Shown here: piece after piece, positions 26,021-32,619 of the stretch
Position numbering within the stretch: position 1 is the first letter of the stretch
Layout of the letters: every line of letters starts with the position of its first letter
Assembly (NCBI GenBank): GCA_030621915.1
Contig: JAUXGV010000009.1
Location: 1-34,055 of the forward strand
DNA length: 34,055 nucleotides
DNA from: Flavobacteriaceae bacterium
GTDB taxonomy: Bacteria; Bacteroidota; Bacteroidia; Flavobacteriales; Flavobacteriaceae
Direction: 5' to 3'
The notes under the pieces: generated by a model
Databases searched by the model: none
What the model was told of the DNA's origin: nothing
The model's input: the letters and a program-made list of their open reading frames with translations, nothing else
Program-made: the position numbers and the translations under genes

Positions 26021-26500
26021 ATGAAATCAATCAATCGACTTTTAATTTTGACCACCATTGTTTTGTTATCAATGACCAATTCAGCGTGTGATTCGCCAGA
26101 CCCAGATATAATCATTACACTCTATGTAAATACAAAAGAGGTTAAACATTCACAAACTGAAGACTATTGTTATTTATTCTCAGAAGATAGCAATCCGAAA
26201 AATTCGGGAACCGGTAAAAATAATCTTAAAGATTTTTTAACTGAAGTGGAATTAGGAGACAATGTTTTATGGAATGGAATTTCATCAAACGCTCCTGAAA
26301 CTGATATTGTGAAGATTAAACAAATTATACGTATGGAAGGTCCAAAAATTTTTAAGGGAGATCCAAAAGGAAATCGTACGGTTAATGCAAAGACAGTAAA
26401 AGTTACCCCAGGGAACGATAAATATCGCTATATAATACAATTCACGGTTTCAACAAAATCTGGAGTTTTTACGATAGACCCAAAAATGCAAGTGAATTAA
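26021..26500 (+). CDS. Putative lipoprotein, unknown function
   Basis: Signal peptide with lipobox-like SMTNSAC; no family recognised. Confidence 0.65.
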   Translation: MKSINRLLILTTIVLLSMTNSACDSPDPDIIITLYVNTKEVKHSQTEDYCYLFSEDSNPKNSGTGKNNLKDFLTEVELGDNVLWNGISSNAPETDIVKIKQIIRMEGPKIFKGDPKGNRTVNAKTVKVTPGNDKYRYIIQFTVSTKSGVFTIDPKMQVN

Positions 26501-26564: not shown

Positions 26565-28397
26565 ATGAAAAAAGCCTATATATTTCTAGGCTTTTTTCTT
26601 ATTTATATGGGAATTATTCATGGTCAGAATCAACAATTAGCCGATAGTCTTGAATTGCTTTATTCTCAGGGTAATTTTGAAGAGCATAATCGATTAAAAA
26701 TTCTTGAGCAACTTGCCATTAATCAACTGGATCCTGAAAAAAAACTCAGCCGTAGCGATGAACTAATTAGGTTGGCATTGGAAATGGATTCTACATCTTA
26801 TTTGTGGTCTGGATATATACAAAAAGGCACAGCTTATAAAGTTAAAGCCAACTATGATAAATCTTTGGAAAATTATTTCCATGCAGCTGAATACGCCAAT
26901 AATGAACATCTTTATAAAAAAATTGGTGCTATTAACATAACTATTGCTGATGTTTATTCTTTGATGGGAAATCATCATAATGCAGTTGAATACTATCAAA
27001 AATCAATTAACATTCTACGTAAAGAAAATGATTCAATCACCCTGGCAATATCCTTATTGAATACGGGGGAACATTATTTGCAACAGCAAATTCCTGATAT
27101 CGCTATGGTGTATTTTAGGGAATCGGGTCAAATATTCAAGAATATAGATCATAAAATGGGTATAGCATATAATTTGGGAAATATGGGAATGGTTTATTTC
27201 CAGAAAGGGGAAAATGAATTGTCTGAGGATAATCTTAAAGGAGCTATCGAAATACTGAATGAATTAGGTGATTATTCCCCTATTTGTGAGTATCTGATTG
27301 TTATTTCTCAAATTTATCAAAATAGAAAAGATATAAAAGATATAAAAGAATCTATTAATTATGCGAACAGGAGCCTCCAATTATCTCAACAATATGGCCT
27401 AAAGAAACACATTAGTGATGCAAACTTAAAACTTTCTGAATTATACGAACAAGAAGGAATCATATTAGAATCTTTTGAATATTATAAAAACCATATAATT
27501 TATCGAGACAGTGTTAATAATATTGAAACTGTACAGGAAATTGCTGATTTACGTACGGATTTTGAAGTCCAGAAGAAGCAAGATGAAATTGTGTTTTTAG
27601 AAAAGGAAGCTGAAATTTCTGAATTAAGATCTAGGAAGCAGAAAAATATGACCTATGCCTCGGCAATAACTTCAGTTTTGGTTTTATTGCTGGCTTTTAC
27701 CCTGTTTAGACGCTATAACTATATCAAAAAAACCAGTTATATTATACAACAGGAAACGATTAAGTCAGAAAAATTATTATTGAATATTTTGCCTGAAGAA
27801 ACCGCATTGGAATTAAAATTAAATGGAAAGGTACAGGCGAAACAATTTGATTCGGTAAGTGTAATGTTTACAGATTTTAAAGATTTCACCAAACATTCTT
27901 TGAACTTGACTCCGGAAGTTATTGTGAAAAGTGTTGATTTTTATTTTTCAAAATTTGATGAAATTATAGAAAAATATGAATTGGAAAAAATTAAAACTAT
28001 TGGAGATGCCTATATGTGTGCGGGTGGATTGCCATTTCCTAACAAAAATCATTCAAGGCAAATGATAGAAGCTGCTTTTGAAATTTTAGAATTTGTACAA
28101 GAATCAAAAAAAATAACGAATAAAAATATAGCAAATTTTGATGTGCGAATTGGAATTAACACAGGCCCCGTTGTAGCAGGTGTGGTAGGTGTAAAAAAGT
28201 TTGCGTATGATATTTGGGGTGATACAGTTAATGTTGCCTCAAGAATGGAATCTATGTCAACACCTGGAAGGATAAATGTTTCGGAAAACACTTATGAATT
28301 AATTAAAGATACATTTGATTGTGAATATAGGGGTGAAATTGAAGTTAAAAATAAAGGCTTGATGAAGATGTATTTTGTCAATGGAATCAAAACATAA
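26565..28397 (+). CDS. TPR-containing, membrane-anchored class III adenylate/guanylate cyclase
   Basis: Signal/TM N-terminus, several TPR-like repeats (IGAINITIADVYSLMGNHHNAVEYYQKSINI), TM (YASAITSVLVLLLAFTLF), CHD domain VMFTDFKDFT...KIKTIGDAYMC...YDIWGDTVNVASR. Confidence 0.92.
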   Translation: MKKAYIFLGFFLIYMGIIHGQNQQLADSLELLYSQGNFEEHNRLKILEQLAINQLDPEKKLSRSDELIRLALEMDSTSYLWSGYIQKGTAYKVKANYDKSLENYFHAAEYANNEHLYKKIGAINITIADVYSLMGNHHNAVEYYQKSINILRKENDSITLAISLLNTGEHYLQQQIPDIAMVYFRESGQIFKNIDHKMGIAYNLGNMGMVYFQKGENELSEDNLKGAIEILNELGDYSPICEYLIVISQIYQNRKDIKDIKESINYANRSLQLSQQYGLKKHISDANLKLSELYEQEGIILESFEYYKNHIIYRDSVNNIETVQEIADLRTDFEVQKKQDEIVFLEKEAEISELRSRKQKNMTYASAITSVLVLLLAFTLFRRYNYIKKTSYIIQQETIKSEKLLLNILPEETALELKLNGKVQAKQFDSVSVMFTDFKDFTKHSLNLTPEVIVKSVDFYFSKFDEIIEKYELEKIKTIGDAYMCAGGLPFPNKNHSRQMIEAAFEILEFVQESKKITNKNIANFDVRIGINTGPVVAGVVGVKKFAYDIWGDTVNVASRMESMSTPGRINVSENTYELIKDTFDCEYRGEIEVKNKGLMKMYFVNGIKT

Positions 28398-28472: not shown

Positions 28473-29000
28473 ATGATTCAATCTAATAAAGTTATGATAC
28501 AAGACTCCAATAATTATTGGGAACAATTGGAGAGATTAGAGAAATTAATCAGAGCTTCAGAGCTTAAAGCTGGAGTTATTTTTTCCTTTCACAGTTTAAT
28601 TTTAGGGCTTTTTGCGGATAGATTAGAACATTTCAGCCAGTTATTTAGTGCCAATTTGATTCTGATTATTATAGCCATTTTATGGTTGTCGAGCGTATTA
28701 ATTTCTATTTTTTATTGTTTTAAATGTTTTAGGCCTAGAATAGAATTAAAATATGATAGTAATGTTTTTTTCTTTAGAGATGCGGTATATGAATTCGGTA
28801 ATATAAAGGAATACAGTAAAAAATTGATAGAGATTTGTGGTAGTGAAGAAGAACTATTTATTCAATTAAGTCAACAAATTCATGTGGAAAGTAAAATTAT
28901 TGATCAAAAGTTTAAAAGTGTTAACAGTTCAATTAAATTTTTTGGTTTAAGTTTTATTTTCATCATTGCTATTATAATTGTATCACTGGTATATATATAA
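28473..29000 (+). CDS. Two-TM protein resembling the Pycsar effector domain (PycTM / DUF5706)
   Basis: WEQLERLEKLIRASELKAGVIFSFHSLILGLF ... two TM helices ... CFRPRIE ... C-terminal TM; layout and the 'ELKAG'/'RPR' signatures fit PycTM-type domains. Confidence 0.68.
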   Translation: MIQSNKVMIQDSNNYWEQLERLEKLIRASELKAGVIFSFHSLILGLFADRLEHFSQLFSANLILIIIAILWLSSVLISIFYCFKCFRPRIELKYDSNVFFFRDAVYEFGNIKEYSKKLIEICGSEEELFIQLSQQIHVESKIIDQKFKSVNSSIKFFGLSFIFIIAIIIVSLVYI

Positions 29001-29020
29001 GTTAGGAACAAAAGAGTATT

Positions 29021-29605
29021 ATGAAAGGATATAACAAAATACGAAAAGAGATATTGGGAATTTTGCATACAAAATTACCTAAAGGATTATATTATCATGG
29101 ATTACATCATACTCTTGATGTTTTAAAAGTTTGTAATCAATATATAAAAAGAGGAAACTTTGATGATCATACTTCAAAAATCTTAAGATTAGGTGCATTG
29201 CTTCACGACATAGGTTTTACGGTTTCAATTAATGATCATGAGCTGAGGGGAACTGAAATTGCAGAGGAATTGATGACAAAGTATGACTTCTCGGGAAAAG
29301 ATATTGATAGGGTTAGAGGAATTATTATGGCGACTCGTGTACCTCAAAAACCCTTGAATATTTTAGAGGAAATGATATGCGATGCTGATTTGGATTATTT
29401 GGGAAGAAAAGATTTTTATGTTATAAGTAATCAGTTATATAAAGAATTAAAATTTAATTCAGTCTTGTCAACTAAATTAGAATGGGATAAAATTCAAATT
29501 AAATTTTTAGGTGCTCATAAATTCCATACAGATTTTGCCAAGATTTATAGACAACCAGAAATGCAAAACCGGATTGAAGAATTAAAAATGCTGGTTGAGA
29601 AATGA
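29021..29605 (+). CDS. HD-domain phosphohydrolase
   Basis: YHGLHHTLDVL, ALLHDIGFT (HD), NDHELRGTEIAEE, ICDADLDYLGRKDF; resembles the N-terminal HD module of Bacteroidota HD-PycTM fusion proteins. Confidence 0.88.
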   Translation: MKGYNKIRKEILGILHTKLPKGLYYHGLHHTLDVLKVCNQYIKRGNFDDHTSKILRLGALLHDIGFTVSINDHELRGTEIAEELMTKYDFSGKDIDRVRGIIMATRVPQKPLNILEEMICDADLDYLGRKDFYVISNQLYKELKFNSVLSTKLEWDKIQIKFLGAHKFHTDFAKIYRQPEMQNRIEELKMLVEK

Positions 29606-29696
29606 AACTAGGTTTAAAATTAATTAAAAAAACATTTCATATAAATAATATTCTTTAAATAGATATCAATAATTGAACCTATATCTACCAAGTTTT

Positions 29697-30713
29697 ATGA
29701 AAAATAATAATAAAACTCTAGTATTGATCTGTATGTCATTTATATGGTTCGGAATGAATTCTAGAGTATCCGCTCAAAAAACTAAAATCAGAGGTTTTGC
29801 AGATGTTAGTGCTTTTTATCATGATGACAAACTTAGCTTTGGAATTGGCGAATTCGATTTATTTTTTACCTCCGAACTGAGTGATCGAATTTCTTTTTTA
29901 GGTGAAGTAGTATTTAAATATTCCCCACATTCTGAGAGTCATTTTGCTGTAGGTGTTGAGAGAGCTATTATAAATTACAATTATCATGGCAATCATAGTT
30001 TGCTTTTTGGAAAGCACCATACACCTATCAATTATTGGAATGATACTTATCACCATGGTCGTGTTTTTTTTCCTACGATTAATCGTCCAATTTTGTTTTC
30101 TGAAGGCATTATTCCAATTCATACAACTGGAATAGCAGCTCAAGGATTAAATCTTGGAAATTTAAGATTTGGATATAATTTAATGATTGGAAACGGCATA
30201 GGATCTGGAGATTTGGTTGATAATAATAAATATAAAAGCGTGACAGCTGCTGTTCATATCAAGCCTTGGGAAAATTTTCAAGTAGGTGTGTCATTTTATA
30301 ATGATGTTATTTCTGAGGGTGATGAAGATGATGGAGAAATAATAGATGAAAAGGTAAATCAACAAATATTTACGGGGTCAATTGTCTATTTCGGAAATAG
30401 GTTTGAATTTCTTACAGAATCAAGTTTCATTAATAATGAAACCGAAAGTACAGGTAATGTAAAATCACTTGCTGCTTATGTTTATGGTGGAGTGATTATT
30501 AAAGAACAATGGGTGCCATATTTTCGATATGATTATTTATCATATGAAGATGAAGAGCCCTATTTTGATAATGAAGATGTCAACTCTATAATTCTAGGCT
30601 TGAGATATGAAATAAATTATTTAATGGTCGTCAAATTAGAATATCAATATTTAGAACGAGATTTTTCCGGAACCGACAATAGAATAACCGCCCAATTTGC
30701 CATAGGGTTTTAA
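29697..30713 (+). CDS. Porin-like outer-membrane beta-barrel protein
   Basis: Signal peptide ...SRVSAQ, alternating beta-strand pattern, ends FAIGF; ATG at 29697 preferred. Confidence 0.75.
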   Translation: MKNNNKTLVLICMSFIWFGMNSRVSAQKTKIRGFADVSAFYHDDKLSFGIGEFDLFFTSELSDRISFLGEVVFKYSPHSESHFAVGVERAIINYNYHGNHSLLFGKHHTPINYWNDTYHHGRVFFPTINRPILFSEGIIPIHTTGIAAQGLNLGNLRFGYNLMIGNGIGSGDLVDNNKYKSVTAAVHIKPWENFQVGVSFYNDVISEGDEDDGEIIDEKVNQQIFTGSIVYFGNRFEFLTESSFINNETESTGNVKSLAAYVYGGVIIKEQWVPYFRYDYLSYEDEEPYFDNEDVNSIILGLRYEINYLMVVKLEYQYLERDFSGTDNRITAQFAIGF

Positions 30714-30725
30714 TAAATAGAGCTT

Positions 30726-31181
30726 ATGAAAATATTAATTATAAACTTTTCTCTTTTCTTGACTATCATAATGGCCTCAATGAATGGATCTATTATATAT
30801 GGGCAAGAAGTTGAATTGACCATTGTGGGTAATTCGCAATCTGTACCACAAGAAATGGATATGAGTCAGCTAAAATCCGTGTTAAGAGGTGAGCAATTGA
30901 GATGGAATGATGGATCAAAAGTAATTATTGCTTTGATGAAAACAACTACACCCATTGGATCATCTACCTGTGATAAAATATTCAATATGTCAGGTAATCA
31001 GGTTTCAAAATATTTTTTGGCCTTAGTTTTTCAAGGTAAAATGAAAGCGCCAACCTTTTTTGATTCTGTTGACGAATTGGAAAATTTTGTTTCCAAAACC
31101 CCTGGCGCAATTGGTGTCTTGCAAGTTACTGATGATGATGAATTGATAACTATTTCTGTTGATGGTAAAACACAAATCTAA
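30726..31181 (+). CDS. Short PstS-like periplasmic substrate-binding-type protein (~151 aa)
   Basis: MSQLKSVLRGEQLRWNDGSKVIIALMKTTTPIGSSTCDKIF...PGAIGVLQV resembles the PBP-like phosphate-binding fold; signal peptide. Confidence 0.65.
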   Translation: MKILIINFSLFLTIIMASMNGSIIYGQEVELTIVGNSQSVPQEMDMSQLKSVLRGEQLRWNDGSKVIIALMKTTTPIGSSTCDKIFNMSGNQVSKYFLALVFQGKMKAPTFFDSVDELENFVSKTPGAIGVLQVTDDDELITISVDGKTQI

Positions 31182-31233: not shown

Positions 31234-32619
31234 ATGAAACTTTCTGTAAAAAGCAAAATATTATTAACAGTCCTATCGGTAGTGCTGATGTTCGCCCTAT
31301 TTATTCTATTTTATTATCCGGCAAAACAGCAACGTTTCCGTATGGAAAGCTATCATAAGGAGATTCAAAATTTTTCTAGTACAGTTGCTTTGGGTGTAAA
31401 AATTGCACTTACAGAAGAAAATTTTGAAGGAGTTGAAACGGCCTTAGATTTTGTGAGAGATGATAAGAGATTGCAATTTGTTAGTTTGATTACAATCGAT
31501 ACAGTTTGGAAAAAAGATAAAATTAATTTTGAGCTCAAGAAAAAGGTTTTTATGACTTATCCTGATTCTATTTTGGTGGATACAGAAGGAAACTCAAACA
31601 ATGACTTTATCATTAAAAGATCATCTTTTGAAACTCCCCTAATGAATGGTGAGATTATGCTTAGTTTTTCAACTACTGAAATAATGGAAGCATTATATGA
31701 AATAAGAGTTGCTTCTGGTATTGCGAGTTTAGCCGTATTTTTAGTCGGACTTTTTTTTGGTTTTAGATTGGCAAAAAATATTTCTGTTCCGGTATTGGCA
31801 TTACGAGATGCAGCAAATAAGGTGGGAGAAGGTGATTTAACTCAATTTGTTAGTAATAAATCTGGCGATGAAATTGGAGAATTGGGTATAGCATTTAATA
31901 AAATGGTAAAGGATTTGGGCTTCGCTAGAAAACAGATTAATCAACGTAATGTTGAATTAAAGAAAGAGAAACAAAAGTCGGATGAATTGTTACTTAATAT
32001 CTTACCTTCAAAAACAGCAGAAGAAATAAAAAAAACAGGTAAAGCGAAGGCTCAGTATTATGAATCTGTAACAGTAATGTTTACTGATTTTAAGGATTTT
32101 ACTGCTATTACAAAAAATATGAGCCCGGACAAGATTGTGGAAGAATTACATTATTGTTTTAGTGAATTTGATAAGATTATCAAAAAACACAATATTGAAA
32201 AGATCAAAACTATTGGTGATTCCTATATGTGTGTTGCCGGTTTACCCGTTATTAATTCTACCCACCCTTTTGATGCTGTTAATGCTGCAATTGAAATAAG
32301 AGATACGATGCTGCAATATAAAAAAGACAAAGAAGCCAAAGGTGATATTTCATTTGATTTAAGAATAGGAATACACACCGGACCCGTAGTTGCAGGAATT
32401 GTAGGTATTAATAAGTTTGCTTATGATATTTGGGGGAGCACCGTTAATGCTGCTTCGCGTTTAGAGGGATGTAGTGAATCAAATAAAATCAATATTTCTG
32501 AATCTTTATTTGAGATCGTTAAAGAGAAATACGATTGTACTTCACGTGGAAAAAAATCTGTAAAAGGACTTGGTAAAATACCGATGTATTTTCTTGAGGA
32601 ACTAAAAGTTAAAAATTAA
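31234..32619 (+). CDS. HAMP-domain class III adenylate/guanylate cyclase with periplasmic sensor region
   Basis: Two TMs flanking ~130 aa, HAMP (NISVPVLALRDAANKVGEGDLTQFVSNKSGDEIGELGIAFNKM), CHD VMFTDFKDFT...KIKTIGDSYMC...YDIWGSTVNAASR. Confidence 0.94.
   Translation: MKLSVKSKILLTVLSVVLMFALFILFYYPAKQQRFRMESYHKEIQNFSSTVALGVKIALTEENFEGVETALDFVRDDKRLQFVSLITIDTVWKKDKINFELKKKVFMTYPDSILVDTEGNSNNDFIIKRSSFETPLMNGEIMLSFSTTEIMEALYEIRVASGIASLAVFLVGLFFGFRLAKNISVPVLALRDAANKVGEGDLTQFVSNKSGDEIGELGIAFNKMVKDLGFARKQINQRNVELKKEKQKSDELLLNILPSKTAEEIKKTGKAKAQYYESVTVMFTDFKDFTAITKNMSPDKIVEELHYCFSEFDKIIKKHNIEKIKTIGDSYMCVAGLPVINSTHPFDAVNAAIEIRDTMLQYKKDKEAKGDISFDLRIGIHTGPVVAGIVGINKFAYDIWGSTVNAASRLEGCSESNKINISESLFEIVKEKYDCTSRGKKSVKGLGKIPMYFLEELKVKN

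Follow-up and report, generated by a model that had tools for sequence, protein, structure and literature searches.

A conserved adenylate cyclase, PycTM and HD operon of marine flavobacteria suggests a cAMP-like signalling role for Pycsar effectors

Marine flavobacteria conserve a small operon in which a class III adenylate cyclase is encoded ahead of a PycTM membrane protein and, often, of an HD-domain protein that may degrade the messenger. Its make-up suggests a second role for "Pycsar effectors", in cAMP-like signalling outside Pycsar. To our knowledge, PycTM has been described in no other capacity than as membrane effector of Pycsar, a defence system built on pyrimidine cyclases. The operon lies in a 34,055-nucleotide stretch of a Flavobacteriaceae genome (GenBank assembly GCA_030621915.1, contig JAUXGV010000009.1), referred to here as the window, and its genes are listed in Table 1. 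A literature search, with subscription papers and preprints outside its reach, returned no described system in which PycTM, HD and an (adenylate) cyclase come together. The components themselves were already known; what appears to be new is their combination, its conservation and the adenylate-cyclase-linked PycTM clade.

Table 1. Genes of the conserved cassette and of the neighbouring downstream set, with window coordinates.
Feature	Position	Strand	Basis
Small exported protein, 159 aa; cassette gene 1	26021..26500	+	Family weakly matching PixA/AidA inclusion-body protein (PF12306)
TPR-transmembrane-class III adenylate cyclase, 621 aa	26532..28397	+	PF00211 198.6 bits, TPR_12, K/D residues
PycTM membrane protein, 168-175 aa	28473..29000, start more probably 28494	+	PF18967, PADLOC PycTM
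HD-domain putative phosphodiesterase, soluble, 194 aa	29021..29605	+	PF01966, AlphaFold/Foldseek, invariant motifs
Porin-like outer-membrane protein, neighbouring set gene 1	29673..30713	+	Weak OMP_b-brl match; outside conserved cassette
Small PBP-like periplasmic protein, neighbouring set gene 2	30726..31181	+	Weak PF12849 match; L067 homologue 2e-84
TM-HAMP-class III adenylate cyclase, neighbouring set gene 3	31234..32619	+	PF00211 177.7 bits, HAMP 42.7 bits, K/D signature

An earlier, sequence-only reading of this DNA had drawn attention to the membrane and HD frames, 20 bp apart and lying between two class III cyclases. Both frames are confirmed with this spacing and both cyclases are real. 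The linkage that is conserved, however, is to the upstream TPR-cyclase, whose gene ends 75 bp before the 28473 frame. The downstream HAMP-cyclase was considered as the partner and rejected: the porin/PBP/HAMP-cyclase set, in the same gene order, recurs behind PycTM-HD only in a Maribacter MAG (L067:9410-12328), and it is therefore treated as a separate set.

Assignment of the 28473 frame to PycTM, proposed from the letters alone, is borne out by PF18967, which scores the frame at 39.9 bits (40.6 bits when the whole genome was scanned) where its gathering cut-off is 27.2, and by PADLOC PycTM models, which match it at up to E = 2.5e-23. The protein is 52-69% identical to 14 orthologues, whose aligned N-termini read 'M-x-Q/H-D-P/S-N-N-Y-W' and make 28494 a likelier start than 28473. 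Two strong hydrophobic segments agree with the two transmembrane segments originally described, and a weaker one at 'ELKAGVIFSFHSLILGLFA' makes a third possible. A sequence search of solved structures gave no match, and a fold search with the PycTM model (pLDDT 82) gave no PDB match of value; a recognisable cNMP-binding domain is absent from the protein. PycTM proteins studied to date respond to cUMP or cCMP (PMC11224242).

A profile scan of the named genome collection with PycTM recovered 66 relatives, nearly all from Flavobacteriaceae (Lutimonas, Muriicola, Winogradskyella, Mangrovimonas, Eudoraea, Robertkochia, Psychroflexus, Polaribacter and Croceitalea), with others in Mangrovivirga and in one Verrucomicrobiae genome. 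Only loci whose sequence extends 1 kb or more upstream of PycTM and 0.7 kb or more downstream were counted, 59 in all, or 60 with the window. PycTM is immediately preceded by a same-strand class III cyclase in 45 of these 60, so that the linkage to cyclases, for which the earlier reading had proposed a neighbourhood survey, is indeed conserved; HD follows PycTM in 27, and all three genes are present in 22, with most gaps shorter than 100 bp. The gaps between cyclase and PycTM range from -26 to 95 bp, except for two of 200 and 770 bp, the latter enclosing a small gene. As the whole assembly (2.9 Mb, 77% complete) holds only three class III cyclases, and the adjacency recurs so widely, the pairing of cyclase and PycTM is not a matter of chance. 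The same HD family also follows TPR-cyclases without PycTM at six loci (L041-L044, L046, L048), which indicates that HD goes with the cyclase; together, the PycTM and HD surveys found three forms, namely cyclase-PycTM-HD, cyclase-PycTM and cyclase-HD. PycTM lacks a cyclase directly upstream in 15 of the 60 loci, and five Eudoraea-type genomes carry it alone at one fixed place. Locus flanks are common to four genomes of the window's genus (L022, L023, L027, L055), one contig holding only the end of HD.

Single loci add further variants. In Verrucomicrobiae bacterium DG1235, a lone cassette-type PycTM (L105:8001-8501), with no cyclase match in about 8 kb on either side, was likely acquired by horizontal transfer. 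At L120:8001-8503 the PycTM gene is broken into two overlapping frames, probably through decay or an error of sequencing. In another family of the order, HD, a TonB-dependent receptor (with a Plug domain in L049) and a TPR-cyclase form one same-strand run (L049:3155-8410, L050:2881-8156).

The account first given of the locus did not mention the small gene that heads the cassette. Its family lies directly upstream of the cyclase in 30 of the 45 cyclase-PycTM loci, comprising all 23 without HD as against 7 of the 22 with HD, a contrast that may reflect ancestry. Some members of the family pass the threshold of the PixA profile (PF12306); the window copy has no Pfam match. Its proteins, seen at L058, L059, L074, L117 and other loci, with several tandem copies in L117, end in 'IDPK', and the PixA-like protein could be a ligand or co-sensor.

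The cyclase product is the firmest step in the proposed circuit. The upstream protein consists of an N-terminal hydrophobic segment, TPRs, a transmembrane segment at residues 372-395 and a class III cyclase domain (window 27804-28394), an arrangement predicted to place the TPR sensor in the periplasm and the cyclase in the cytoplasm. The solved structures that match it best are adenylate cyclases, and it carries the residues expected of a class III adenylate cyclase: two metal-binding Asp, the K and D/T base residues, and the transition-state N and R. Among 89 cassette cyclase ORFs, which include duplicates (some genomes appear under two locus ids) and are not 89 independent cases, the base-site Lys is present in all, the second site is D in 85 and T in 4, and the catalytic Asn and Arg are invariant. 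Against the PADLOC PycC models the window cyclase reaches at best 50.3 bits, compared with 265-476 for five PycCs that adjoin PycTM in the phylum sample; these have D, R, R, S and S at the Lys site, and Lys replaces Arg wherever aligned. Pycsar proper is ruled out by this low score together with the adenylate-cyclase active-site residues (K + D/T): of the features that define the system, the cassette has the operon-encoded effector (here PycTM; PycTIR would also qualify), and has neither a PycC-clade cyclase, which would score hundreds of bits against a PycC model, nor a pyrimidine-selecting active site. Published pyrimidine-selecting residues vary among PycC clades (PMC11224242), and the residue-based exclusion of cUMP and cCMP is for that reason a prediction, not proof.

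The downstream frame was correctly read as an HD protein, with 24.1 bits against PF01966 (cut-off 22) and an AlphaFold model of high confidence (pLDDT 96.8). Its family is marked by the invariant motifs YH-x3-H, HD, HE, D-x-D and W-x3-Q-x2-F, and the presumed catalytic ligands H26, H30, H62, D63, E74, D121 and D123 are nearly strictly kept. All 76 family members contain the pattern YHxxxH-x(25-35)-HD, against 0 of 698 background ORFs of comparable length. This pattern fits the motif that PMC4222275 quotes for class I phosphodiesterases, H(X)3H(X)25-35D/E, which is not exclusive to phosphodiesterases and is shared in part by related HD hydrolases. The direct match to PDEase_I (PF00233; E 0.038, 14.1 bits) stays below the cut-off of 24.8. 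In the HD protein, Q159 (window 29495-29497) precedes the invariant F162 by three residues, and a HMMER register of non-significant score sets it on the 'QVGFI' of PDE5. Phosphodiesterase base pockets use a glutamine/phenylalanine pair, which Q159 and F162 presumably recall. Of the standalone HDs, 53 of 55 have Gln at position 159, and of the fused HDs 17 of 21 have Asn there (duplicate records included); the difference between the cyclase-linked HDs and most fusions would be compatible with a possible switch in base preference.

The fused proteins are those in which HD and PycTM form one chain. That such fusions exist in Bacteroidota, as the sequence-only reading stated, is illustrated by the host itself, which encodes one of 407 aa on another contig (L001), and frames of about 400 aa are the commonest form of PF18967 in the phylum sample. 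The further proposal that the window pair represents the separated halves of such a fusion does not survive the phylogenies. In a maximum-likelihood tree of HDs, a branch supported at 99/92 parts the fused HDs (with five unlinked ones) from the standalone, mostly cyclase-linked HDs, and in the PycTM tree a branch at 100/99 has the fused PycTMs on one side and every standalone one, whether from the cassette or from Pycsar, on the other; long branches in the latter blur the inner order of the Pycsar rows, not the fused/standalone split of the densely sampled groups. True split halves do occur elsewhere: L196 is arranged cyclase-PycTM-HD and L197 HD-PycTM, and the PycTM of each sides with the fusions in the tree. 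The first of these, in another Bacteroidota family (L196:1777-5103), has a cyclase-TPR protein, a fusion-type PycTM and an HD in tandem, and is apparently a trio independent of the cassette.

The company kept by related PycTMs also bears on the role of the cassette. Its PycTM clade joins, on a branch supported at 96/94, PycTMs whose neighbour is a response-regulator cyclase (L178, L210) or a GAF cyclase (L179); both are signalling architectures. At L178:4004-5637 and L210:3885-5560 the class III cyclase lies directly beside a cassette-type PycTM; a response-regulator receiver is fused to the cyclase in L178, where two-component control of a PycTM module is probable, and the L210 cyclase is of the same length. 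Carriage by phages or plasmids was rejected, as a scan of viral contigs yielded no confirmed cassette homologue and tblastn against phage and plasmid records yielded none.

Taken as a circuit, these parts would work as follows. The TPR domain, predicted to be periplasmic, would respond to an envelope signal, perhaps together with the small PixA-like protein, and would switch on the class III adenylate cyclase on the cytoplasmic side; the messenger made, a cyclic nucleotide and most likely cAMP, would act on the inner-membrane PycTM and change its oligomeric or permeability state; and the soluble HD protein, resembling class I cyclic-nucleotide phosphodiesterases, would hydrolyse the messenger and thereby reset the circuit or set its threshold. 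PycTM is cast as the receptor on the strength of Pycsar precedent and linkage, and HD as the phosphodiesterase on the strength of fold, motif and linkage. Whether the whole chain holds, from TPR-sensed cyclase activation through cAMP acting on PycTM to its hydrolysis by HD, we regard as evenly balanced. Counting against it are the cUMP or cCMP responses of the PycTMs studied to date, the absence of a recognisable cNMP-binding domain, the 15 loci whose PycTM has no cyclase directly upstream, and the CRP-type receptors of the host, through which cAMP may act as well. A fuller reading, in which a periplasmically sensing adenylate cyclase, a cAMP-gated PycTM and a class I-type HD cAMP phosphodiesterase make up a non-Pycsar circuit in one operon, and PycTM is the older element later re-used by Pycsar, is advanced tentatively, as a possibility that falls somewhat short of that balance.

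The step assigned to HD admits two other readings. Instead of a cyclic-nucleotide phosphodiesterase, the protein could be a YpgQ-type nucleotide pyrophosphatase or another nucleotidase that tunes nucleotide pools, since the best Foldseek E-values fall on the HD hydrolases 2pq7 and YpgQ, ahead of human PDE5 and other class I phosphodiesterases (PDE4, PDE2), and 2pq7 is also the best profile match among solved chains. However, the TM-score is higher to PDE5 (up to 0.73) than to YpgQ (0.60-0.62), the genomic linkage of HD to cyclases is tight, and the conserved Q-x2-F tells cyclase-linked from fused HDs, so that this function appears unlikely, if still a serious contender. Caution about any such assignment comes from SpdA: its cyclase locus had led to the prediction of a 3',5'-cAMP phosphodiesterase, yet the enzyme cleaved 2',3'-cNMP (PMC4222275); by that example, the phosphodiesterase guess for HD could fail as well. 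The protein might also serve as a second receptor or regulator, its metal site binding the messenger and its contact with PycTM or the cyclase, not hydrolysis, exerting control. A stoichiometric operon would suit this role, and the fused HD-PycTM proteins of the phylum show that both domains can act as one unit; the almost strict retention of the presumed catalytic ligands argues the other way and makes it distinctly improbable.

For the locus as a whole, fission of a Bacteroidota HD-PycTM fusion would account for the 36% identity between the window HD and the fusion HD of the same genome and for the distant similarity of their PycTMs. Both trees speak against it, and the fusion is moreover retained in the same genome, HD with cyclase alone and PycTM with cyclase alone both occur, and no cyclase match was found in 51 fused loci of about 3 kb each; we attach hardly any credence to it. 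Pycsar-like abortive infection deserves more weight: a phage would trigger the cyclase, PycTM would permeabilise the membrane, and HD would prevent accidental firing. PycTM is the named Pycsar effector family, and an effector that kills would be well matched with a messenger hydrolase encoded in its own operon. Against this stand a cyclase that falls outside the PycC models and bears the adenylate-cyclase signature, an exported TPR-sensor architecture, the level of orthologue conservation given above, the lack of phage, plasmid or confirmed viral-contig homologues, and window neighbours such as ileS, lspA, uvrC, an RND efflux set, ribE, pdxA and other non-defence genes. Vertically kept signalling is favoured by these neighbours, by the missing phage and plasmid homologues, by the shared flanks and by the fixed place in Eudoraea-type genomes; the suspicion voiced at the outset, of signalling rather than anti-phage defence, is strengthened accordingly, with defence left as a minority reading that we consider doubtful.

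Should a clade of PycTM proteins prove to be wired to canonical adenylate cyclases, the ligand range and role of the family would be wider than assumed, and "Pycsar effector" annotations would mislead defence surveys. The operon in addition supplies a candidate, open to testing, for a class I-like cAMP phosphodiesterase of bacteria that is encoded together with a cyclase of its own, and it brings within reach of experiment the question whether Pycsar effectors arose in signalling or in defence.

Among known systems, Pycsar (PycC + PycTM; PMC11224242) shares with the cassette the operon pairing of a class III-fold cyclase and a PycTM membrane protein. The cassette differs in a cyclase that is TPR-TM-anchored, carries adenylate-cyclase residues and scores far lower against PycC models, in the added HD gene and small exported gene, and in a neighbourhood that is not one of defence. 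The HD-PycTM fusions, annotated as "Pycsar system effector family", are built from the same two domain families, whereas the cassette has them as separate genes in the opposite order, linked to a cyclase and placed in other clades of both trees, with Q in place of the N that mostly occupies HD position 159 in the fusions. Class I phosphodiesterases (PDE5, PDE4, PDE2) resemble the HD protein in the H(X)3H(X)25-35D metal-site motif, in overall fold by TM-score and in a Q-x2-F near the C-terminus; they differ in catalytic domains of about 320 aa against 194 aa, at 11-15% identity and with no significant sequence match, the activity of the HD protein being putative. The upstream cyclase, finally, is one of the TPR-sensor class III adenylate cyclases of Bacteroidota.
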